Of a stretch of 64,000 nucleotides of DNA, positions 35,527-52,224 are shown piece after piece. Each line of letters opens with the position of its first letter. Position 1 is the first letter of the stretch. A program made the position numbers and the translations under genes. Below the pieces are notes generated by a model. That model saw nothing but the letters and a program-made list of their open reading frames with translations. It did not search any database and was not told the DNA's origin. The stretch is from the NCBI RefSeq assembly GCF_014698015.1, contig NZ_JACXBS010000002.1:372001-436000 (forward strand), read 5' to 3'. The DNA is from Kocuria sp. cx-455. Lineage in GTDB: Bacteria > Actinomycetota > Actinomycetes > Actinomycetales > Micrococcaceae.

Positions 35527-36420
35527 GTGCCCGAACTTCCCGAGGTCGAGGTAGTACGACGCGGCGTGGCCAACTGGGTGGTCGGTCGCACCATTGAACA
35601 CGTCACCGTCAACGACGAACGCTCCCTGCGCCGTCACGTGGCCGGCCCTCAAGATTTCATCGACCGCGTGACCGGACTGACCGTCACGGACGCCCAGCGC
35701 CGCGGCAAATTTCTGTGGCTGCCCGTCAGCGAGGCTCACAAGACCAAGGCGAACCGAGCCCTGCTCGTTCACCTGGGGATGAGCGGCCAGCTTCTCGTGG
35801 CCTCCCACGACCAACCCGCGCCCCGCCACGAGCGGCTGCGCTTCGAACTGTCCCCGGCTCCGTCGGACACCGGCGAGCCCCTGCCGGAACAACTGCGCTT
35901 CGTGGACCAGCGGATCTTCGGCGGGATGCTGCTGGACCGACTGGTGCCCAGCCCGCAGGGCGGGGGACCGGTGCCCGAGCACGCCGCTCACATCGCCCTG
36001 GATCCCTTGGACCCTATGTTCGACGCGGCGGCTTTCCACGCCGCCCTGCGGCGCAAGAAAACCGGTATCAAACGCGCCCTGCTGGATCAGGGGCTGATCT
36101 CCGGGATCGGCAACATTTACGCGGACGAGGCGCTGTGGGCCGCCCAACTGCACTGGGCTGCGCCCACCGACACAATGACCGCTGCCAAGACCCAGCGGTT
36201 GATCGAGGCGTGCCAAGCCGTGATGCGCAGGGCGCTGGATGCCGGCGGCACGAGCTTCGACTCGCTGTACGTAAACGTTAATGGTGAATCCGGAAGAAGC
36301 TCATTGAATGTCTATGGACGGGAGGGTCGCCCGTGCAAGCGCTGCGGCACCCCGATCGTGCGCGAGCGCTTCATGAACCGGTCGAGTCATCTTTGCCCGG
36401 TCTGCCAGCGAAGACGCTAG
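35527..36420 (+). CDS. mutM: Formamidopyrimidine-DNA glycosylase with island-derived 3' end
   Basis: This 297-residue DNA repair glycosylase/AP lyase removes 8-oxoguanine. Seen: the catalytic N terminus [13 protein letters not shown], a helix-two-turn-helix [22 protein letters not shown], and the C-terminal zinc finger CKRCG...CPVCQRR. GTG start four bases after rnc. The reading frame is intact, but from about 36271 the codons change style (GTA, GTT, AAT, GGT, TTG, TAT) relative to the GC-ending codons before. The final 117 bases have a diverged second copy at 42774-42890. The gene is therefore the insertion target of the resistance region and probably received its last ~40-50 codons from the island. 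Confidence 0.93.
36304..36420. repeat. Left copy of a mutM 3'-end attachment-like repeat
   Basis: These 117 bases encode the last 38 residues of mutM plus the stop. They align without gaps to 42774-42890, with 95 of 117 positions identical by hand count, and both copies share TTGAATGTCTATGG at the start and ACGCTAG at the end. The boundary between backbone and accessory genes lies at its right end. Confidence 0.85.
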
Positions 36421-36943
36421 CTGAACGTCGCAGTCGAGTAGCTCGACAGCGGCCCAGACGGGGAGCCTGCCGCCGTACTTCTGCCGGTGGTGCTCGACGA
36501 AGTCCTCGCTGGGCGTGCTGCAGCTCGAACTCGTAGCCGGCGAGCCAGTCGGCGTAGGAACCACCGCTGCGGGCCGTGGGACCGAGTAGATTCGGCTCCA
36601 GGTGCGCGCACGGGTCGACGCGGCCGAGCTCGTGACCCAGCAGTGCTCTGATGGCGAGCTCGATGCGGGACAGCTCGGCGAAGGCCGCGGTGCGCAGCCG
36701 GGCGTCGAACTCGTAGAGCGCGGCGACGTCGGCCAACCGGGTCCCGGAGTAGAAGTCGTCCTGGCGTTGGCTCCCGACGATCTGTCGGAACGGGTACCAG
36801 TACCCGCTGAGCCGGTAGTAGCTGACGCGCCGCAGCAGGGCGACGGCCTCGTCGCGGTCCCCGACGTCCATGCCGCGTTGGATGAGCAGGTCGACTTGCT
36901 CGTCGTAGGAGCGGTACTCCTTGACTGCTCCGTCCAACTGCAC
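36421..36943 (-). pseudogene. Abi_2-type abortive infection gene, frameshifted and truncated
   Basis: Seen: VKEYRSYDEQVDLLIQRGM, LLRRVSYYRLSGYWYPFRQ, LYEFDARLRTAAFAELSRIE and LGHELG, the conserved N-terminal two thirds of Abi_2 (AbiD/F-like) proteins. Near 36515 the frame shifts by one base, and the family motif SEDFVEHHRQKYGGRLP WAAVE-type continuation is found in another frame. The homology stops at VELLD, exactly against the mutM stop codon. The C terminus was therefore lost at the island edge. The start is probably GTG 36941-36943. The gene is almost certainly inactive. Confidence 0.8.
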
Positions 36944-37090
36944 CGTCCAGAAAAGAATGAGGACCGGCCCTGGACCTACCGAGGTAGGCGGAACCGGTCT
37001 TGGTGAGTCCATAGTAGCCGAGACGAGATCGCCCGGCAATCGAACGCCGAAACCGAAGAGGAGCCCGTCGGCAGCCAATGCTGGTAAGAG

Positions 37091-37588
37091 TCAAGCCTCC
37101 GAGTGACGCCAGGGGGCGTCGGGATCGGCGAGGGTCTCGAGCATGAGCTGGCACCAGACCTGGGCCGCGCCAACGACGAGGCGAGCGTGCCGCGGGCGCA
37201 CCCATCTGGGCACTTCCTCGGCTCCGTGGTCGATGCCGACGCTGTTCCTGAGCTCGGTGACGCTCTGGGTGAGGGTGATCAGCGACTGCAGGGCCTGGCG
37301 GAGCGCTCGGTCCTCGTCGCTGACCGACTTGGGGGCGAGGCCGAGCGATACCTGGGCGGCCTTGACCAGCGCGGGCACCTTGGCTGCTCGGGCATAGCTC
37401 TGCCCGCGGGCGGTGAGGACGCACTTGGCGGTCGATTCGATCAGCGCCTTGGCGGTGCTGACGGCGAGCCGTGGGTCGGTGTCGACGCTGTCGCCGAGCC
37501 TGCGCAGGTGGTCCTGGATGGACTGCGGGTCGGGGAGGGCGTTGAGCGCGTGCTCGGTCAGCTTCGCCCCGGCCCGGCCGATGCGCAC
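37091..37588 (-). pseudogene. Abi_C (abortive infection C-terminal) domain protein, 5' end disrupted
   Basis: The 165-residue open frame carries LAVSTAKALIESTAKCVLTARG and LITLTQSVTELRNSVGIDHG, plus a conserved ending VVGAAQVWCQLMLETL. This matches the C-terminal abortive infection domain (pfam Abi_C), often the output part of phage-defence proteins. Upstream homologous-looking sequence (IGWVSTDGLRDKWVRILREN) is in frame but has no start codon. The only nearby start (37790) is in another frame and overlaps the upstream CMD-family stop. A frameshift or fusion near 37690 is inferred. Confidence 0.65.
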
Positions 37589-37779
37589 GGTGCCGCTGGC
37601 CTCGTCGACGTCGAAGCCGTTCTCGCGCAGGATCCGGACCCACTTGTCCCGCAGGCCATCGGTGCTGACCCAGCCGATAGACGTGTCCTGGACGATCGGC
37701 CAGGACCCAGTCGGGGCTGCGGCCGGCGACCAGGGCGGGGGCCTTCGACGTCGCCGGCTTCGAAAGCATGGTCATCTGC

Positions 37780-38099
37780 TCAGCGGGCATCGAGGACCTC
37801 TTTGAGGACGGTGGCCGCGCTCATCCCCGCCGGCCACCCGGCGTAGAAGGCCAGGTGCGTCGCGACCTCGGCCAGTTCCTCCTGGGTCACTCCGTTGTCG
37901 AGCGCCAGGTTGAGATGAGACCGCAGCTGGTCGGTCCGCCCGAGCGCGGTCAGGGCCGCGACGGTCGCCAGGCTGCGGTCGCGCCGAGAGAGTTCAGCCC
38001 GTGCCCAGACGTCGCCGAACAGCACCTCGTCGGTCAGTTCGGCGAGCTTCGGGGCGACGTCGCCTACCAGCTGCTGTGCCCTGCTCTTCTCCTTGCCAT
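37780..38099 (-). pseudogene. Carboxymuconolactone decarboxylase family gene, frameshifted at the start
   Basis: The frame encodes KSRAQQLVGDVAPKLAELTD, DRSLATVAALTALGR, LRSHLNLALDNGVTQEELAE and HLAFYAGWPAGMSAATVLKE, a clear CMD/AhpD-like fold. The only start with a ribosome binding site (GGAGG then ATG at 38099) leads into an 11-codon frame. One missing base after the first codons would give M-A-K-E-K-S-R-A and restore it. The gene may be silent, or the base may be an assembly error. Its stop overlaps the next ATG. Confidence 0.7.
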
Positions 38100-38235
38100 G
38101 CGATCCTCCTGCGGGTCCACCGAGAACGAGACTCGTCCCGTTCGTGATCGACGTTAAACCTCCGGAAGCGGCGGAGGGAGGAACCGCCATTACACCCAAC
38201 GGCCGTGCGCCGCGGGCGTCCCGTTGACATCTCAC

Positions 38236-38596
38236 CGACGAGACGACGCTCAGCCGCCGGGCTCATACCGGTGGGCGAATCGCAGAGCGCCGCTTCGTCG
38301 GGGGATGAACTCCACGACACTGGACTATGCGGTCCAGACGTAGAGCATCGTCTTGCCGACACCGGCATCGCTCGAACTCGCCAGCCCCATGATGCGCAGC
38401 TGACATCGAATGAACTTGTGATGATCGCACAGTTTTCGCTAGTGGTGCGGGGATCGCAGGGTCTGGCATAACCGCCCCATAGGCACCGCACCGGACCCAA
38501 TGACCTTAAGTGCATAGGTGGGTGCTGGCTCGCGTCAGCCGCAGCCGACACTCCGTGAACTACCCACCTATGCGCAGCAAAGATTCAATTCACCGA
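38236..38596. other. Non-coding or decayed interval
   Basis: No convincing gene is seen in these 361 bases. On the minus strand a short stretch reads MMGLASSSDAGVGKTMLY before a stop, which resembles a P-loop fragment and may be gene debris. A 12-bp perfect inverted repeat lies near the right end. Confidence 0.4.
38512..38573. repeat. 12-bp perfect inverted repeat with 38-base spacer
   Basis: GCATAGGTGGGT (38512-38523) and ACCCACCTATGC (38562-38573) match perfectly as inverted repeats around a 38-base spacer, 23 bases from the end of merR. It may be a recombinase or transposon-end relic, or a terminator-like stem for merR. Confidence 0.5.
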
Positions 38597-38986
38597 TCAC
38601 ACGTATCGGCAGACCTGATCGACACTGCATGTATCGGGTTCCGGGTGCGAGGCGTTCTCCCGGAGCTCTGCGATCGTGTCGCGCAGCGCGCCGAGCTGAG
38701 CGATCTGCTGCTCGATGTCGTTCAGCCGCGCGTCGAGCAGGTCACGCACGTGCTCGCACGGCGCACGACCGGCATCACGGATCTCGACGATCTGGCGGAT
38801 CTGGGCGAGGGTGAGGCCGGCTGCTCGGCCGCGGTGGATGAAGTCGATCCGCGCGACGGCCTCCGGCGTGTAGTCGCGGTACCCGGCCGGTGTCCGGTCG
38901 GTTGGCGAGAGCAGTCCCTGCTCCTCGTAGAACCTCAGTGTCTTCGTCGTGGTGCCTGTCTCCGCGGCGAGTTCTCCGATCCGCAT
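38597..38986 (-). CDS. merR: MerR family mercury-responsive regulator
   Basis: This 129-residue regulator has the N-terminal MerR HTH (MRIGELAAETGTTTKTLRFYEE then GLLSPTDRTPAGYRDYTPEAVARIDFI), a coiled dimer helix, and a cysteine in GRAPCEHVRDLLDARL followed by a C-terminal PDTCSVDQVC. Cys in PCEHV matches the metal-ligand position of MerR-type sensors. ATG 38984-38986 is chosen at the conserved N terminus. It is divergent from merA over a MerR-type promoter, so it most likely represses and activates the mer genes in response to Hg(II). Confidence 0.85.
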   Translation of the reverse strand: MRIGELAAETGTTTKTLRFYEEQGLLSPTDRTPAGYRDYTPEAVARIDFIHRGRAAGLTLAQIRQIVEIRDAGRAPCEHVRDLLDARLNDIEQQIAQLGALRDTIAELRENASHPEPDTCSVDQVCRYV

Positions 38987-39016
38987 CGCTGCCTCCCGTC
39001 GCGCGGCGCGCCGCTC

Positions 39017-39048
39017 TTGACCTTCCCCTGCACTGGAAGGTCCAGTAT
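39017..39048 (+). promoter_or_regulatory. MerR-type promoter and operator of the mer operon
   Basis: TTGACC (39017-39022) and CAGTAT (39043-39048) are separated by 20 bases, longer than the usual 17. Between them lies the dyad ACCTTCC-N8-GGAAGGT (39020-39041). Long-spacer promoters with a central dyad are the hallmark of MerR regulation, where bound regulator untwists the DNA. Confidence 0.85.
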
Positions 39049-39090
39049 GGCTGAGAAAGACGAAGAGTCCAAGCGTCGACAGGAGCAAGG

Positions 39091-40515
39091 ATGCCTACGA
39101 AGTACGACCTCGCCGTCATCGGGTCCGGCGGCGGCGCGTTCGCCGCCGCCATCCGCGCGAGCACGCTCGGCAAGTCGGTGGTGATGATCGAGCGCGGCAC
39201 CTTCGGAGGGACGTGCGTGAACACCGGATGCGTGCCGTCGAAGGCGCTCATCGCCGCGGCGGAGGCGCGGCACGTCGCCGCGGATGCGACCGGCCGGTTC
39301 CCGGGCATCATGACGAGCGCGGCACCGGTCGACATGCCCGGCCTCGTCGGCGGAAAGCAGGCACTAGTCGAGTCGTTGCGGGGCGAGAAGTACGTCGACG
39401 TCGCCGACTCCTACGGCTGGCAGGTCCTGCGGGGTGACGCCTCGTTCGCAGGCACGCCCGATGTTCCTCTCCTCGAGGTCATGGCGTCTGACGGGACTGT
39501 TGAGACCGTCGAGACCGATCACTTTCTGGTCGCGACCGGCTCCCGGCCGTGGGCCCCGCCGATCGACGGCCTGGAGGAGGCCGGGTATCTGACGTCGACC
39601 ACGTCGATGGAGCTAACCGGGGTCCCGGAGTCGCTGCTGGTGCTCGGCGGCGGCTACGTCGCCCTGGAGCAGGCCCAGCTGTTCGCCCGGCTCGGGTCGA
39701 AGGTCACCGTGCTGGTGCGCTCACGGCTGGCGTCGAAGGAGGAGCCGGAGGTCTCCAAGACGCTTGAGGAGGTCTTCGCCGAGGAGGGCATTCGGGTGGT
39801 CCGCCGTGCGGTTCCCCTCCGCGTCGTCCGCGACGCGAGCGGCGGCCAGGTGGTTGTCACCGCGGATGTGTCCGGCGGGTCGCAGGAGTTCCGCGCCGGA
39901 CACGTCCTGGTCGCGCTCGGCCGCCGGCCAGTCACCGACGGGCTGAACCTCGGCGCGGTCGGAGTGAAGACCGGCGACGCCGGGGAGGTCGTGGTCACCG
40001 ATCAGTTGCAGTCGTCCAACCCGCGGGTCTGGGGCGCGGGCGACGTGACCGGGCACCCCGAGTTCGTCTACGTCGCCGCGCACCACGGCACCCTCGTCGC
40101 GGAGAACGCCTTCACCGACGCCCATCGGTCGGTGGACTACGCGCGGCTGCCGCGGGTGACGTTCACCGGCCCGGCGATCGGCGCGGTCGGCATGACCGAG
40201 CAGCAGGCCCTCGACGCCGGGATCCGCTGCGACTGTCGAGTGCTGCCGCTGCACCACGTGTCGCGGGCACTGGTCAACCGCGACACCCGCGGCTTCATCA
40301 AGATGGTGGCGAATGCCGACACCGGGAAGATCCTCGGCCTGACCGCGGTAGCGAAGGACGCCGGTGAGCTGGCGGCTGCCGGAGTCCACGTGCTGGGCAA
40401 GACCATCGCTGAGGTCGCCGACGCCTGGGCCCCGTATCTGACCATGGCCGAGGGCATCCGCATCGCCGCCAAGGCCTTCACCACCGACGTCTCGAAACTG
40501 TCGTGCTGCGCGTAA
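39091..40515 (+). CDS. merA: Mercuric reductase
   Basis: This 474-residue cytoplasmic FAD enzyme reduces Hg(II) to volatile Hg(0) with NADPH. Seen: the FAD motif LAVIGSGGGAFAAAIRAS, the redox-active FGGTCVNTGCVPSK near residues 39-52, the NAD(P)H motif VLGGGYVALEQAQLFARLG, GAGDVTG, and the C-terminal vicinal cysteines in KLSCCA that hand over mercury. It lacks the NmerA heavy-metal-binding domain, so it is the short form. AGGAGCAAGG precedes the ATG. It is first in a four-gene operon. Confidence 0.96.
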   Translation: MPTKYDLAVIGSGGGAFAAAIRASTLGKSVVMIERGTFGGTCVNTGCVPSKALIAAAEARHVAADATGRFPGIMTSAAPVDMPGLVGGKQALVESLRGEKYVDVADSYGWQVLRGDASFAGTPDVPLLEVMASDGTVETVETDHFLVATGSRPWAPPIDGLEEAGYLTSTTSMELTGVPESLLVLGGGYVALEQAQLFARLGSKVTVLVRSRLASKEEPEVSKTLEEVFAEEGIRVVRRAVPLRVVRDASGGQVVVTADVSGGSQEFRAGHVLVALGRRPVTDGLNLGAVGVKTGDAGEVVVTDQLQSSNPRVWGAGDVTGHPEFVYVAAHHGTLVAENAFTDAHRSVDYARLPRVTFTGPAIGAVGMTEQQALDAGIRCDCRVLPLHHVSRALVNRDTRGFIKMVANADTGKILGLTAVAKDAGELAAAGVHVLGKTIAEVADAWAPYLTMAEGIRIAAKAFTTDVSKLSCCA

Positions 40516-40551
40516 GCGCGCGACGAGGCGAGGCGGAGAGAGAGGAACGAG

Positions 40552-40848
40552 ATGGGATCCGACCACGATAGGAGGCATAGCAGCGGCGGCCTGCTGGTGG
40601 CGGGTGCAGGACTGCTGATGGTCCTCTGCTGCGCACTGCCCCTCCTCATCGCCGGCGGCGCGCTCGCGGGCGTTGGCGGCGTGCTAGGCAGTCCCTGGGT
40701 CATCAGTGCCGGACTCGTCGTCGTGGCGGTCGCGGTGATCGCCAGCTTGCGACGACGACGCCGCAACGACGTCCAAGGCTGCTGTCCACCCACCCCGCAG
40801 ACAGGTGCCGACCAAGGAGACGAAACGAAGGAGGAGAAAGACAGATGA
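40552..40848 (+). CDS. MerF-like small mercury transporter
   Basis: This 98-residue membrane protein has two predicted transmembrane segments (LLVAGAGLLMVLCCALPLLI and VISAGLVVVAVAVIASL). A vicinal cysteine pair lies in the first segment (LCCA) and another after the second (GCCPP). This layout matches MerF and MerT, where cysteine pairs pass Hg(II) across the membrane to MerA. GAGAGAGGAACGAG precedes the ATG. The last bases overlap the next gene start (ATGA). Sequence identity to named Mer transporters cannot be judged by eye. Confidence 0.72.
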   Translation: MGSDHDRRHSSGGLLVAGAGLLMVLCCALPLLIAGGALAGVGGVLGSPWVISAGLVVVAVAVIASLRRRRRNDVQGCCPPTPQTGADQGDETKEEKDR

Positions 40849-41360
40849 CGTACCGTATCTCCCGCCGGACGGCGATCTCAATCGCAGGCGTCCTGGCTGT
40901 CGGGTCGTTGGGTCTCACCGGCTGCGGCAGCAGCGACGCGGCCGAGAGCGATGGACCGGTGACGGTGGCCGCTCTCGATGGCCAGCAGATCAGCCTGCCC
41001 GCCGCCGGGAAGCCCACCGCGGTGTTCTTCTTCTCCGTCGGCTGCGGCGAATGTGTCAATGGCGTCCGCTTCCTCGGCGAAGCGGTCACCATCGCAGACG
41101 AGAACGGCAACGAGGCCAGTTTCCTCGCCGTCGACATGGATCCGCGCGAGTCCGAGGAGACCATCGAGGGCTTCATGGAGTACGTCGGGGCCGAGCACGT
41201 CCCGGCCGCCATCGACGAGGGCGCGGCCGTGTCCCAGCGGTTCAAAGTCGCTGCTCTGTCCACCCTCATCGTCGTCGACGCCGACGGCCAGGTGACCTTC
41301 CGCGCCACGGACCCCGATGCCGAGACGATCACCGCCGAGCTCGCGAAGGCCGGGGCTTGA
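40845..41360 (+). CDS. Thioredoxin-like lipoprotein of the mer operon
   Basis: This 171-residue exported protein has a signal with twin arginines (SRRTAISIAG) and lipobox LGLTGC giving Cys27. A thioredoxin/TlpA-type fold follows, with the redox motif C67-G-E-C70 in FFFSVGCGEC and the cis-Pro region in KVAALSTLIVVDADG. It is anchored outside the membrane. The CcdA-like protein three bases downstream would keep the CxxC pair reduced. In this context it may bind or shuttle extracytoplasmic Hg(II), replacing MerP, or repair oxidised thiols. Both are inference. Confidence 0.82.
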   Translation: MTYRISRRTAISIAGVLAVGSLGLTGCGSSDAAESDGPVTVAALDGQQISLPAAGKPTAVFFFSVGCGECVNGVRFLGEAVTIADENGNEASFLAVDMDPRESEETIEGFMEYVGAEHVPAAIDEGAAVSQRFKVAALSTLIVVDADGQVTFRATDPDAETITAELAKAGA

Positions 41361-41363
41361 GCC

Positions 41364-42287
41364 ATGGGCGGCCTGCTCGCCCTCGCCTTCGCCGCCGGCA
41401 TGATCGCCCCGGTCAACCCCTGCGGCTTCGCGCTACTCCCGGCATGGATCGCCCATACGCTGGGTGACGCCGACGCCTCCCCGGTCCCGGTCCGCGTTCT
41501 GCGGGCCCTGCGGGCAGGGCTCGCGCTGTCGATCGGGTTCGCAGGCACGCTTGCGCTGGCCGGGGTCGTGGTGAGCGCCGGGGCACGGGGCTTGATTCAG
41601 GCGGCTCCAGCGCTCGGGCTCGCCGTCGGAGCCGTGCTGGTGCTGCTCGGCGCGGCGATGCTGGCCGGCCGATCGATTTCCCTTCGACTGCCCAGCATCC
41701 CCGGCCGAGCGACCGAGAGGCTGCCAAGCACTGTCCGAATGGTCGTCTTCGGTGTCGGCTACGCGGCGGCGTCATTGTCGTGCACCGTCGGGGTCCTCCT
41801 CGCGGTCATCGCTCAGGCCCAGGCCACCGCCAGCTTCTCCGGCCTGCTCCTCGTCTTCGGCGTCTACGCCGCCGGCTCGGCCACCGTCCTGCTGCTCGTC
41901 GCCATGACCACGGCCACCGCTGGCTCCCTGCTCACCCGACGCGTCGCGGCACTCGCTCGCTACGGCCCCAAAGTCACCGCCGCCGTCCTCGTGCTCACCG
42001 GGATCTACCTGACGTGGTACTGGTTTCCGGCCGCCACCAGCGACGCCCCGGCCTCCGGCCGCACCGACGGGATCGCCGCCGTCTCCGCGGCGGTGTCCGG
42101 CTGGCTCCAGGGACAGACCGTCCTCATTACTGGACTCTCCATCGCAGCGGTGCTGCTGGCCCTAGTGGTCGGGGCGCTCCAACGGCGACGTCGGACGTCG
42201 GCCCGGATGACGACCGAGGACTGCTGCGGCGCAGAGTCGCCGCGCTCGGCAGACGATGAGCCCGACGCATCGACCGCACAGGGCTGA
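41364..42287 (+). CDS. CcdA/DsbD-like thiol-transfer membrane protein with C-terminal Cys pair
   Basis: This 307-residue polytopic protein has about six core helices and one extra. The two family cysteines lie in NPCGFALLPAWI (helix 1) and ASLSCTVGVLLAV (helix 4), which carry electrons from cytoplasmic thioredoxin to the outside. After a linker and a last helix (TVLITGLSIAAVLLALVVGA) the cytoplasmic tail has a vicinal pair in EDCCGAE. That tail pair is not part of standard CcdA and may bind Hg(II). It follows the thioredoxin-like lipoprotein by 3 bases. Confidence 0.82.
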   Translation: MGGLLALAFAAGMIAPVNPCGFALLPAWIAHTLGDADASPVPVRVLRALRAGLALSIGFAGTLALAGVVVSAGARGLIQAAPALGLAVGAVLVLLGAAMLAGRSISLRLPSIPGRATERLPSTVRMVVFGVGYAAASLSCTVGVLLAVIAQAQATASFSGLLLVFGVYAAGSATVLLLVAMTTATAGSLLTRRVAALARYGPKVTAAVLVLTGIYLTWYWFPAATSDAPASGRTDGIAAVSAAVSGWLQGQTVLITGLSIAAVLLALVVGALQRRRRTSARMTTEDCCGAESPRSADDEPDASTAQG

Positions 42288-42773
42288 CCAGGCCCGTACG
42301 AGCGTGGTCGGCAAGGAGTGCGAGTCACGCCGTTCGTCATCAGAGCGGTCGGCGTGAGGTAGGACGCCGCGTGGGCGCTCAGGTCGACGTCGTGCACGCG
42401 GTTCGTCAAGCAGTAGCCGCGACGCCGTCTCGCAGACATCCCTTTGGCAGGACGAGACCCGACCTCCCCGATCGCGCGAGAGGTCCGGTCTCAGAACATT
42501 GTAGGGCGAGCGTCCAAGGCGGGTGACCGGCAGGTGTCGAAGATCTGGAGGAGCGCGCGCGATGAGGGATGGCTCGACGTCGCCGCCGCGGCCGAATGCC
42601 TCCGTCGAAGCATCCGGACCACCCGGCGACTCACACCTGTATCGTGCTCTTCAGTGCGTCCGGCGCTGCTGGAATGGGAGTGCGAGTCGAGTGCCTCTTC
42701 AATTGCGAGTCGATTGGCGAGTCGACTCGCAGTACATGAACGTCTCAATCGTGTGGAGTCGGGACGTTATGCG
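42288..42773. other. Non-coding stretch before the second mutM-like repeat
   Basis: No convincing full gene is seen in these 486 bases. One frame contains [21 protein letters not shown], which resembles the HTH of excisionase-type proteins but is not in a recognisable gene. A cluster of GCGAGTCGA repeats lies at the right end. Confidence 0.45.
42682..42730. repeat. Triple GCGAGTCGA repeat ending in a palindrome
   Basis: GCGAGTCGA occurs at 42682-42690, 42705-42713 and 42717-42725. The last extends to the 14-base palindrome GCGAGTCGACTCGC (42717-42730). The cluster lies 44 bases before the mutM-like attachment repeat, a position typical of recombinase or excisionase arm sites. Confidence 0.65.
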
Positions 42774-42890
42774 TTGAATGTCTATGGGCGGGAAGGTCAC
42801 CCGTGCAACCGTTGCGGTACTCCAATCGTACGGGAGAAGTTCAGGAACCGCTCGAGCCATTTTTGCCCGCGCTGCCAACGGAAACGCTAG
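42774..42890 (+). repeat. Right copy of the mutM 3'-end attachment-like repeat
   Basis: It encodes [15 protein letters not shown]...CPRCQRKR and a TAG stop in the frame of a mutM C terminus, including all four zinc cysteines, but no glycosylase body lies upstream. A few more matching residues (ESGR) extend it to about 42756. It matches 95 of 117 bases with 36304-36420. It is either the displaced host end or the end carried by another island. Confidence 0.88.
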
Positions 42891-44692: not shown

Positions 44693-45036
44693 CAGGTGAT
44701 GAGCGCCTTGGCTGCGGCGGCGAGAGTGTCGATGGTGGGCCGGTAGTAGGCCCAGCGGCCGCGCTGCTCGCGCTCGACGAGGCCGGCCTCGACGAGCAGC
44801 TTCATGTGGTGGGAGACGGTCGGCTGTGATAGCCCGACGGGCTCGGTGAGATCGCAGACGCACATCTCGCCCGCGCTGCTTCCGGCAATGAGGGACATGA
44901 GCTTGACCCGGGTGGGGTCGCCGAGGGCCTTGAACACCCTGGCGAGATCCTGGGCGACCGTGTCGTCGATCGTCTCGCCGAGGACGCAGCAGGGCGCGAC
45001 GTCGGCCGCGGATTCGATGGCTGGGGGAGTGCTCAT
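44692..45036 (-). CDS. arsR: ArsR family arsenic-responsive repressor
   Basis: This ~114-residue winged-helix repressor has VFKALGDPTRVKLMSLIAG, the HTH VGLSQPTVSHHMKLLVEAGLV, and a probable As(III)-binding site in GEMCVCDLTEP, with an extra vicinal pair near the N terminus (APCCVLGE). ATG 45036 is preferred, with GGAGG directly upstream. It is divergent from the flavoprotein-MFS operon across an operator-like motif, and co-transcribed with arsN. Confidence 0.9.
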   Translation of the reverse strand: MSTPPAIESAADVAPCCVLGETIDDTVAQDLARVFKALGDPTRVKLMSLIAGSSAGEMCVCDLTEPVGLSQPTVSHHMKLLVEAGLVEREQRGRWAYYRPTIDTLAAAAKALIT

Positions 45037-48734: not shown

Positions 48735-49166
48735 TCAGGCCACGGGCCCTGCAGCGAGTTCGCCGACAAGTTGGCGCACCTTCTCGGCGAGCTCGTCGCG
48801 GACCAGGCGCATTCGTTCCTCGCCCTCGATCCCTCGCGCCGAGGGCTCGTCGATCGTCCATTTCTCGATAGTCCCGGCCATCCCCGGCACGGGCTCGACG
48901 ACAGCCTCGTCGCCGATTACGACGACGCGGTCCGCAGTCTGCAACATAGTGGGATCGATCGGCTTCGGGTGCTCGTCGGCCATGCTCGCCCCGACCTCGG
49001 CGACAGAGGCAGCGGACAGGGCATTGAGCCCCGTCCCGGGGGAGGTGCCCGCCGAGTGCACCCGGACGGAGTTGCCGGCGACCTGGCGCATGAGTGCGGC
49101 GGCCATCTGCGACTTGCCTGCGTTCTTGACGCAGACGAATAGGATGGACGGCTTCTTCTCGATCAC
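48735..49166 (-). CDS. arsC: Arsenate reductase / arsenate-mycothiol transferase
   Basis: This 143-residue low-molecular-weight phosphatase-fold enzyme has the P-loop FVCVKNAGKSQMAAAL with nucleophile Cys near residue 12 and Lys in place of the usual Arg. That is the form of actinobacterial ArsC1/ArsC2 enzymes that join arsenate to mycothiol. Only this one cysteine lies in a catalytic position, as expected for that class. GTG start at 49166. It converges on the MFS gene with 6 bases between stops. Confidence 0.88.
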   Translation of the reverse strand: MIEKKPSILFVCVKNAGKSQMAAALMRQVAGNSVRVHSAGTSPGTGLNALSAASVAEVGASMADEHPKPIDPTMLQTADRVVVIGDEAVVEPVPGMAGTIEKWTIDEPSARGIEGEERMRLVRDELAEKVRQLVGELAAGPVA

Positions 49167-50771: not shown

Positions 50772-51190
50772 GCCAGCGCCGGGTCCTGGCCGAGCAGCTC
50801 TGAAGTGAGCGTCTCGATCCGGGACCTGATTTCGTCGCGGATCGGGCGCACCGCCTCGATGCCCTGGCCAGCGGGATCGTCGAGCTTCCAATCCTCGTAG
50901 CGCTTGCCGGGGAAGAACGGGCAGGCGTCACCGCAGCCCATCGTGATGACGACGTCGGAGTCCTGCACGGCCTCGGTGGTGAGGACCTTGGGCTCCTCGG
51001 CGATGATATCGATCCCCTCTTCAGCCATGGCCTCTACAGCGACCGGGTTGATCTGCTCGGCGGGCATTGACCCTGCCGAGCGGACCTCGATGCGGTCCGC
51101 GGCGAGGTGGCGCAGCCAACCGGCGGCCATCTGGGAGCGGCCGGCGTTGTGGACGCAGACGAACAGGACGGAGGGTGTTTGATCGCTCAT
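50768..51190 (-). CDS. arsC: Arsenate reductase, LMW-phosphatase fold
   Basis: This 140-residue enzyme has the P-loop FVCVHNAGRSQMAAGWLRHLA, the VRSAGSMPAEQINPVAVEAM segment and the redox/second-shell motif VITMGCGDACPFFPGKRYEDW, with cysteines near residues 82 and 86 as in thioredoxin-linked ArsC. ATG 51190 is chosen; ATG 51211, overlapping the fusion gene stop, is an alternative. It lies within the acr3 operon after the ArsR-ArsC fusion. Confidence 0.92.
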   Translation of the reverse strand: MSDQTPSVLFVCVHNAGRSQMAAGWLRHLAADRIEVRSAGSMPAEQINPVAVEAMAEEGIDIIAEEPKVLTTEAVQDSDVVITMGCGDACPFFPGKRYEDWKLDDPAGQGIEAVRPIRDEIRSRIETLTSELLGQDPALA

Positions 51191-51207: not shown

Positions 51208-52224
51208 TCATTCGGTGGTGAAGGTGGCGAGGAGCCGGCTGACGCGTGCAGCGATGTCGTCGCGTATAGCGGCGAGTCCCTCCGGCGATGCCAGTGCCGG
51301 GTCGCCGACAGCCCAGTCTTCGTACCGGACTCCGGGGACGATGGGGCAGGCGTCGCCGCAGCCCATGGTCACCACGACATCGGCAGCGCGAATGGCGTCG
51401 TCGGTGAGCGGCTTGGGGAACGCCTCGTCGGCGGCCTCGCGGTCGATGTCGGCGACGAGGTCGCGCACGTGCGGGTGGATGCCCGTCGCCGGGGTCGAGC
51501 CGGCGGACCGGGCGATGACCCTGCCCTCGGACAGGCTGCGGGTCAGCGCCGCGGCCAGCTGGGAACGACCTGCGTTGGCGACGCAGACAAACAGCACCTG
51601 AGGCGGTGCGGTTGCTCGGTTGCGGGTGAGGTCGGCCAGTCGCTGCCGGGCGAAGCGCTCGGTCAGGGGCACCAGGTAGCGTGTGATCTTCGCCGACCGG
51701 GCCAGCGCCGTGTACGATTCCCGGACGATGCTGGTGACGGTCTCCCGCGGCAGCTGTGACGTCGCGTCCGCGAGGTCGGCGGCCAGACGCCTGATGTGCT
51801 CGTCCATGCTCTCCAGCTCCGCGTCGGCCGTCGTCTCCGGTTCCACGCTGGGGGCAACGGCCGCGGGCGCGAACCCCTCGAGCAAGGCGGCGACGGCGGC
51901 ACTCTTCCCTGGCGCGATGCTGTACCAGACCCAAGTCCCACGGCGCTCGGAATTGAGCAGCCCCACTGTCCGGAGGACCTTGAGGTGGTGGGAGACGGTC
52001 GGCTGTGAGACCTCGGCGAGGTCGGCGAGATCGCACACGCACGACTCTCCGCGAGGATCGGCAGCGATTGCCGAGAGCATCCGCAGACGCAATGGGTCGG
52101 CGAGGGCCTTGAGTGTGCCCGCGAGAGTCGCGGCAACCTCCTGGCCGAGGGCTGTTGAGATCGGCGGCACCTGGGGTGGGCAGTCTTCATCGGGGGCGGC
52201 TGGCGTCAGCGCGATGTCGGTCAT
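51208..52224 (-). CDS. ArsR-ArsC fusion protein
   Basis: This 338-residue protein has three parts. Residues 25-115 are an ArsR winged helix (LKALADPLRLRMLSAIAAD, CVCDLADLAEVSQPTVSHHL, LLNSERRGTWVWYSI). Residues 140-205 are a helical linker domain (MDEHIRRLAADLADATSQLP to ITRYLVPLTERFARQRL) seen before ArsC in some actinobacterial reductases. Residues 210-338 are an ArsC domain with FVCVANAGRSQLAAALTRSL and VVTMGCGDACPIVPGVRYEDW. It therefore joins arsenite sensing with arsenate reduction in one chain. ATGA overlap with acr3. Confidence 0.88.
   Translation of the reverse strand: MTDIALTPAAPDEDCPPQVPPISTALGQEVAATLAGTLKALADPLRLRMLSAIAADPRGESCVCDLADLAEVSQPTVSHHLKVLRTVGLLNSERRGTWVWYSIAPGKSAAVAALLEGFAPAAVAPSVEPETTADAELESMDEHIRRLAADLADATSQLPRETVTSIVRESYTALARSAKITRYLVPLTERFARQRLADLTRNRATAPPQVLFVCVANAGRSQLAAALTRSLSEGRVIARSAGSTPATGIHPHVRDLVADIDREAADEAFPKPLTDDAIRAADVVVTMGCGDACPIVPGVRYEDWAVGDPALASPEGLAAIRDDIAARVSRLLATFTTE

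Follow-up and report, generated by a model that had tools for sequence, protein, structure and literature searches.

The window analysed here is a 64,000-nucleotide stretch of Kocuria sp. cx-455 (C2:372001-436000 of genome G000, 3.06 Mb in 10 contigs), and its subject is mutM, the gene for formamidopyrimidine-DNA glycosylase, together with the array of accessory genes that follows it. Two copies of the mutM 3' end lie in the window and a third lies beyond it; the first two each open a unit of accessory DNA (Table 1; positions past 64000 carry the window numbering on through L003-L006 and are called extended). We consider it very probable that these units are two site-specific islands stacked in the 3' part of mutM, each with its own mutM tail and its own attachment (att) right end.

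Three mutM ends at one locus

An original prediction of stacked islands at this gene was based on a repeat, 36304-36420 against 42774-42890, which is as it had been described: 95 of 117 positions are identical without a gap and both copies terminate in the mutM stop, with four cysteines kept in each. A repeat search returns the two ends at 82% over 119 nt as the top repeat family of the window, and the pair lies far above chance, with E = 7.7e-27 when the whole genome is searched and 2e-29 for a 144-kb stretch. Between 36301-36420 and copy 2 there are 12 synonymous and 8 non-synonymous codon differences, with 15 of the 24 base differences at third positions. The shared block is wider than first noted, beginning at the GG dinucleotide of each junction (Table 1).

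A third mutM-like end had been predicted further right, before smc, and it is present. Found first by tblastn of the 144 kb (extended 75910-76038, E = 4.6e-9), it spans extended 75897-76059 when counted from its GG, 12 kb beyond the window and 5.3 kb before smc (81390); three minus-strand genes, to which we assign olefin-type names on our own reading, separate it from smc. The claim that everything between and after the first two copies is accessory holds up to extended 75897 and fails beyond the third end, where core genes resume. Copy 3 shares a longer first cysteine loop and an extended basic ending with the native ends of most congeners shown, and copies 1 and 2 have neither. Among 12 congener loci compared (L012-L021, L080, L081), seven have an empty site (G011, G006, G016, G023, G003, G015, G005), with the first of the three downstream genes about 60-240 bp after mutM. 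The remaining five comprise G014, with a 1.26-kb gap, G010 and G021, with no such downstream gene within the 1.5 kb examined after mutM, and G001 and G002, which carry a segment. The native-like features of copy 3, together with the empty sites of congeners, indicate that copy 3 is the native end and that copies 1 and 2 were brought in; relatives that lack the metal genes and nevertheless carry the same two ends, the case that would have spoken against the prediction, were not seen at these loci.

The segment in G001 and G002, the closest relatives of G000, is about 1.7 kb long and follows a different mutM end. In G002 (L153:6684-8380) it holds, by eye, a HipB-HipA-like pair followed by about the last 80 bp of a copy-3-type native end, and in G001 (L155) synteny resumes at the same base.

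Table 1. Features of the mutM array, in window coordinates
Feature	Position	Strand	Basis
mutM (chimera of host body and 127-bp island-supplied end)	35527-36420	+	Junction and relatives
Host part of mutM	35527-36291	+	Diverges with the species tree
GG crossover, outer left junction (attL), in the Gly codon of GES-G	36292-36293	+	Junction comparison
Tail 1, island-supplied mutM 3' end (zinc finger and stop)	36294-36420	+	Identical in G139 and G219
Unit 1, 6,470 bp	36294-42763		Tail 1 to right end
Open reading frame with partial Abi_2/AbiD match (81-171 of 235 aa)	36371-37078	-	Pfam
mer-like cluster: MerR, Pyr_redox enzyme, redoxin, membrane-type open reading frame without Pfam match	38597-42287		Pfam; "mer" is our reading
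Conserved right-end region of unit 1	42440-42761	+	Alignment with other right ends
GG crossover, unit 1/unit 2	42762-42763	+	Is the unit 2 left junction in B. rongguiense
Tail 2 (copy 2), mutM 3' end travelling with unit 2	42764-42890	+	Identical tail ends B. rongguiense mutM
Unit 2, 33,133 bp	42764-64000, on to extended 75896 (= L003:11896)		Relatives

Separable units and their junctions in relatives

Both units together, the composite, recur in two species of another genus, at the same spot of their diverged mutM: in G139 at 99.75% over 39,851 bp (81 mismatches; about 230 bp of this alignment are host mutM) and in G219 at 99.90% over 39,660 bp (40 mismatches). In a search of 395 genomes of the family, the 334 bp before copy 2 are 100% identical in these two genomes; this right end has some match in 18 of the 395 genomes and is full-length only in G000, G139 and G219, the other 15 holding fragments of 25-96 bp. 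An island-tail pattern search of the genome_contigs collection added five stretches from four records, namely Arsenicicoccus piscis, Brevibacterium rongguiense, Curtobacterium sp. S6 (two stretches; the same genome as G219, NZ_JHEL01000015.1) and Thermocrispum municipale. In B. rongguiense, mutM is fused at the GG to tail 2 and is followed by unit 2 alone (99.84% over 33,181 bp); the right junction of the unit is at the same place, with the following end one base short, and past it lie a 1.4-kb cassette of one AbiD/Abi_2 gene (328 aa) and another mutM end. This lone unit 2 indicates that units 1 and 2 are separable, each with its own tail. Four mutM ends are counted in the G219 array, three in B. 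rongguiense and several in A. piscis, and other segments occupy the same mutM spot in congeners. The third end and the separable units in relatives thus bear out the second stacked island that had been postulated.

A single composite island, in which copy 2 is a passenger duplication inside one element, would account for the finding of the composite as one block in three species. It does not account for B. rongguiense, where unit 2 is alone and its tail joins mutM at the GG, nor for the right-end type that units 1 and 2 share, and we regard it as very improbable. As the origin of the array it is refuted by the B. rongguiense unit, while the pair does now travel as a composite.

The junctions are placed almost to the base. 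On the left, the last host difference from G000 lies 1 base before the GG in G139 and 10 bases before it in G219; on the right, the host DNA of G139, G219 and B. rongguiense departs from that of G000 at the very base that follows the GG. Between G000 and G139 or G219, the MutM tails are 100% identical at the protein level and the bodies 53-54% identical. The G000 body is 48-64% identical to the other bodies compared, and the bodies group by genus, G000 with G004 and G019, G139 with G291, and G219 with G210. Sequence comparison thus demonstrates both the junctions and a chimeric gene, just as alignment with the relatives establishes the lone unit 2 and the composite in three species. The islands might instead have been moved by homologous recombination between mutM ends (gene conversion or transformation), since the tails are mutM sequence that could pair with any mutM and the left boundary in G219 is fixed only to 10 bp. 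Yet the right boundary falls on the same base in all three relatives and the left within 1-10 bp of the GG, and these boundaries are constant although mutM homology extends to both sides of them, which leaves this route extremely improbable.

These data have led us to propose a model in which each island would carry at its left a 127-bp replacement for the MutM C-terminal zinc finger and at its right an att half-site with AGTCGACT repeats. A recombinase would join attB and attP, crossing over at the GG of the GES-G-YF glycine codon, whereupon the island tail would complete the host mutM and the old end would be pushed to the far side. The left junction would then again be an att site, at which a second island could insert (accretion), and either unit, or both as one composite, could move.

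Attachment sites, right ends and the candidate recombinase

The att sites of 11 arrays were reconstructed by anchoring them on the GG ourselves and pairing the outer halves even where several units are stacked. Read in this way, the contiguous identity of attB and attP is the GG only in six arrays (G000, G397, G219, G395, G004, G239) and 9-21 bp including the GG in the other five (G139, G019, G396, G210, G135). Serine recombinases characteristically use a 2-bp overlap, and the restriction of identity to a 2-bp crossover core in six of the 11 arrays points to an enzyme of this class. A congener, G019, has an 84-kb island in mutM that encodes a 482-aa protein combining Resolvase and Recombinase domains; its start lies about 235 bp from the displaced mutM end, and it is the only case seen of a large serine recombinase gene next to the att site, such a gene being absent from the G000 units. 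We infer that a large serine recombinase does the joining, supplied transiently in trans by helper elements such as this island.

The right ends of units 1 and 2 are 79% identical over 338 bp. The last 110 bp or so of the unit 1 right end carry AGTCGACT repeats that recur in other units: seven of 13 right ends (two in G000, plus G210, G291, G397, G135 and G219) have 60-113 bp beside the core in common, these repeats included. TTTTTCAATGTATCTATCGTGGG is common to three others (G019, G133 and one A. piscis end), and the G019 right end matches those of G133 and A. piscis at 80-81% over 65-68 bp. Neither group fully accommodates the inner A. piscis end, the G004 end or the decayed B. rongguiense end. 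Right ends were also folded as DNA, L115 being left out of the eight sequences because of wrong coordinates; of the five ends of the G000 type, two were close to their shuffles (z about 0) and three were about 2 standard deviations better (z about -2).

Several observations weigh against the proposed model. The prediction had looked for a recombinase gene beside the array, and none was found in or next to either unit. No recombinase or relaxase family was matched among 30 open reading frames (ORFs) of the units searched in Pfam, a set that leaves aside some small ORFs, and none of the PF00589, PF00239 and PF07508 matches of the G000 genome falls inside the units. PF07508 is missing in eight of 14 genomes searched, from which it follows that a resident large serine recombinase is unneeded to keep the array. 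Close relatives of the G019 recombinase are scarce, with 10 other family genomes at E <= 1e-60 and 39-41% identity and a best match of 46% in the order sample, and a mutM end stands beside none of 31 such loci (10 from the family, eight viral contigs, 13 from the order) in the stretch examined. The repeat-bearing right end of about 110 bp is also longer than the usual attP of a serine recombinase. No relative of the recombinase was present on plasmids or phages at >=60% identity, att patterns had 0 matches in viral contigs, the island right end had on plasmids only one weak Nocardia match, to the mutM tail alone, and no element combining a serine recombinase with a G000-type right end was found in family genomes, viral contigs or plasmids.

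Insertion by a tyrosine recombinase, either Xer-like or from a lost integrase, draws on some of the same facts. The genome has PF00589 genes, of which we read two as XerC/XerD-like; the conserved right end of about 110 bp with its repeats resembles arm sites; and a large serine recombinase was not found in several carriers. Such enzymes need an identical overlap of about 6-8 bp, yet only the GG is shared in six of the 11 arrays, and the sole recombinase seen beside a displaced mutM end, that of G019, is of the serine type. We therefore consider a tyrosine enzyme unlikely and retain the serine recombinase acting in trans as the preferred agent. A tyrosine integrase near the array was sought and rejected as a candidate: PF00589 occurs three times in G000, never in the units, and the nearest such gene lies 31 kb past the third end and looks XerC/XerD-like by our reading.

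Rebuilt MutM ends, cargo and related systems

In 12 arrays a mutM body precedes the first end (nine of the family genomes named below, plus A. piscis, B. rongguiense and T. municipale), and all 12 rebuilt mutM ends keep the reading frame and the four cysteines. The G000-type end has two residues fewer in the loop that follows the Gly (GRSSLNVYG versus GYFARSLNAYG), and solved MutM structures match residues 1-295 of the 297 in the chimeric MutM (best E = 3.8e-42). AlphaFold run with 12 sequences gives a confident chimera body and a tail of low confidence, with block means of 31-67 over residues 241-297. In the proposed model MutM would stay active after the end swap. The locus shows a natural and repeated replacement of the zinc finger of a DNA-repair enzyme by horizontally acquired versions.

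Seven full-length second mutM genes (mutM2) were identified, two in G291 and one each in G210, G133, G135, A. piscis and T. municipale. They form one clade across hosts (support 1.0) with 70-90% mutual identity; the G133 copy has an internal stop and the start of the G210 copy is uncertain. The mutM2 genes lie inside some islands (L102:4345-5184, L103:3075-3914, L118:4179-5018 and others), several of them beside metal-type genes. An island table for Brevibacterium lists fpg1 genes with merR/merA/merB and metal genes, the name mutM being absent from the accessible text (PMC12467314), and these entries fit mutM2-bearing islands. Tandem duplication and decay of mutM paralogs, with no mobile element involved, would be in keeping with the complete second mutM at some loci and with G325, which resembles broken duplicated mutM pieces. 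It is contradicted by the empty sites of congeners, the near-identical blocks across genera and the single mutM2 clade across hosts, and has next to no probability; for G000 itself it is refuted by the near-identical composite in G139 and G219 and by unit 2 in B. rongguiense.

A tail search of the 395 family genomes, in which only best matches were taken, places a cassette at mutM in at least 12 genomes, or 16 when unproven cases are included. In nine of them (G000, G004, G019, G135, G139, G210, G219, G239, G291) one or more further ends come after a mutM body, in G059 a later end lies about 1 kb after mutM, and G001 and G002 have the segment described above. The unproven carriers are G133, G368 and G381, whose rnc-mutM neighbourhood lies outside the stretch examined, and G325 with its broken mutM-like pieces. 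Beyond the window's family, carriers belong to the Brevibacteriaceae, Intrasporangiaceae and Pseudonocardiaceae.

The cargo of unit 1 comprises an Abi_2/AbiD fragment, Abi_C, CMD, MerR, a mercuric-reductase-like (merA-like) FAD enzyme and a redoxin, and that of unit 2 comprises ArsR, an acetyltransferase, a major facilitator superfamily protein, low-molecular-weight phosphatases, SBF transporters, P-type ATPases, a multicopper oxidase and a cation efflux protein; the names mer and HipBA, and metal names beyond the Pfam families, are our own reading. Elsewhere some cassettes consist of one gene (YobI-ATPase/Tmn in G004), G291 carries a type III restriction-modification system, a Snf2-type helicase and an OLD-like ATPase, and G210 carries a type I R subunit and a PDC-S53 protein, with similar ORFs in G219 by sequence. 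The site is thus a common docking site for metal-resistance and defence cassettes in at least three actinobacterial families besides the window's own. We give about even weight to a broader reading in which the actinobacterial mutM 3' end would be a long-lived cassette-capture platform, where recombinase-free cassettes are stacked and shared across families, helper serine recombinases act in trans and mutM2 accompanies metal genes in a subset; on the same reading, the smallest cassettes would hold no more than one antiviral or toxin-antitoxin gene set, and every cassette would bring a spare MutM zinc finger. Together, the displaced mutM tail and the conserved right end provide a signature by which small recombinase-free defence cassettes missed by integrase-based island finders can be sought, and the near base-exact boundaries make excision and helper recombinases directly testable.

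The kind of process is known: it is site-specific accretion, as in cis-mobilizable elements (CIMEs) or the staphylococcal cassette chromosome (SCC). SCC and SCCmec elements insert in rlmH through Ccr serine recombinases, rebuild the 3' end of the gene, occur in tandem and in "pseudo" forms that lack the recombinase, and carry metal and resistance cargo. The mutM units are like them as cassettes of the serine-recombinase type that rebuild a gene 3' end, occur in tandem and recombinase-less forms and carry metal cargo; they differ in using mutM rather than rlmH, in a longer replaced end, in the phylum, and in having no serine recombinase (ccr) match in the units. Integron cassettes are likewise small, free of a recombinase and accumulated at a fixed site, whereas no integron integrase or attC was seen here (none of the three PF00589 genes of the genome is in the array, and the right-end folds are weak) and each cassette rebuilds the host gene.

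CIMEs are the closest concept. In a review of the accretion of integrative and conjugative or mobilizable elements, they are islands without integration and transfer genes that keep attL and attR, stack at one gene and form transferable composites (PMC5704250). The G000 units likewise stand in tandem at one site as separable units, are bounded on both sides by att junctions at or within 10 bp of the GG, and hold no integration or transfer genes among the 30 ORFs; the differences from CIMEs as described there are the mutM target, the rebuilt zinc-finger end of about 40 codons, the one-gene units and the spread over several actinobacterial families. The ssrA islands of Dehalococcoides, which target the transfer-messenger RNA gene, are similar in that many islands with adaptive cargo use one gene and only some (16 of 31) have an integration module (PMC3146451). 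PAISt of Streptomyces turgidiscabies is also an actinobacterial island at a gene 3' end (bacA), with a tyrosine recombinase and an 8-bp palindrome, and excises in modules through an internal att site (PMC4057263). What looks new is mutM as the target, the exchange of its zinc-finger end and the one-gene cassettes that lack a recombinase: among the papers listed on mutM or formamidopyrimidine-DNA glycosylase and islands, integration or att sites, no description of mutM as an integration site was found, and the available text of an integrase survey names neither mutM nor fpg (PMC12884075).

Minor observations concern single arrays. In G368 (L107:12853-15265) and G381 (L108), a 683-aa protein, its start the same in the two genomes, comes after displaced mutM ends; in G368 it has no Pfam or PADLOC match and is a candidate defence gene. 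The G133 locus (L104:5408-16800) holds mutM2, mer-like genes and mutM ends with rnc and smc not nearby, and adjoins a gene that is pdxS-like by eye, possibly a second site or a rearrangement. A. piscis (L116, L115) has two 415-aa ORFs that are transposase-like by eye and share their start; together with a run of 99 identical bases close to two right ends, they suggest insertion sequence (IS) insertions beside att sites. Within unit 2 of G000, internal duplicates pair 44794-44871 with 51973-52050 and 49048-49165 with 51072-51189, and the duplicated segments of arsR and phosphatase type suggest two ars clusters.

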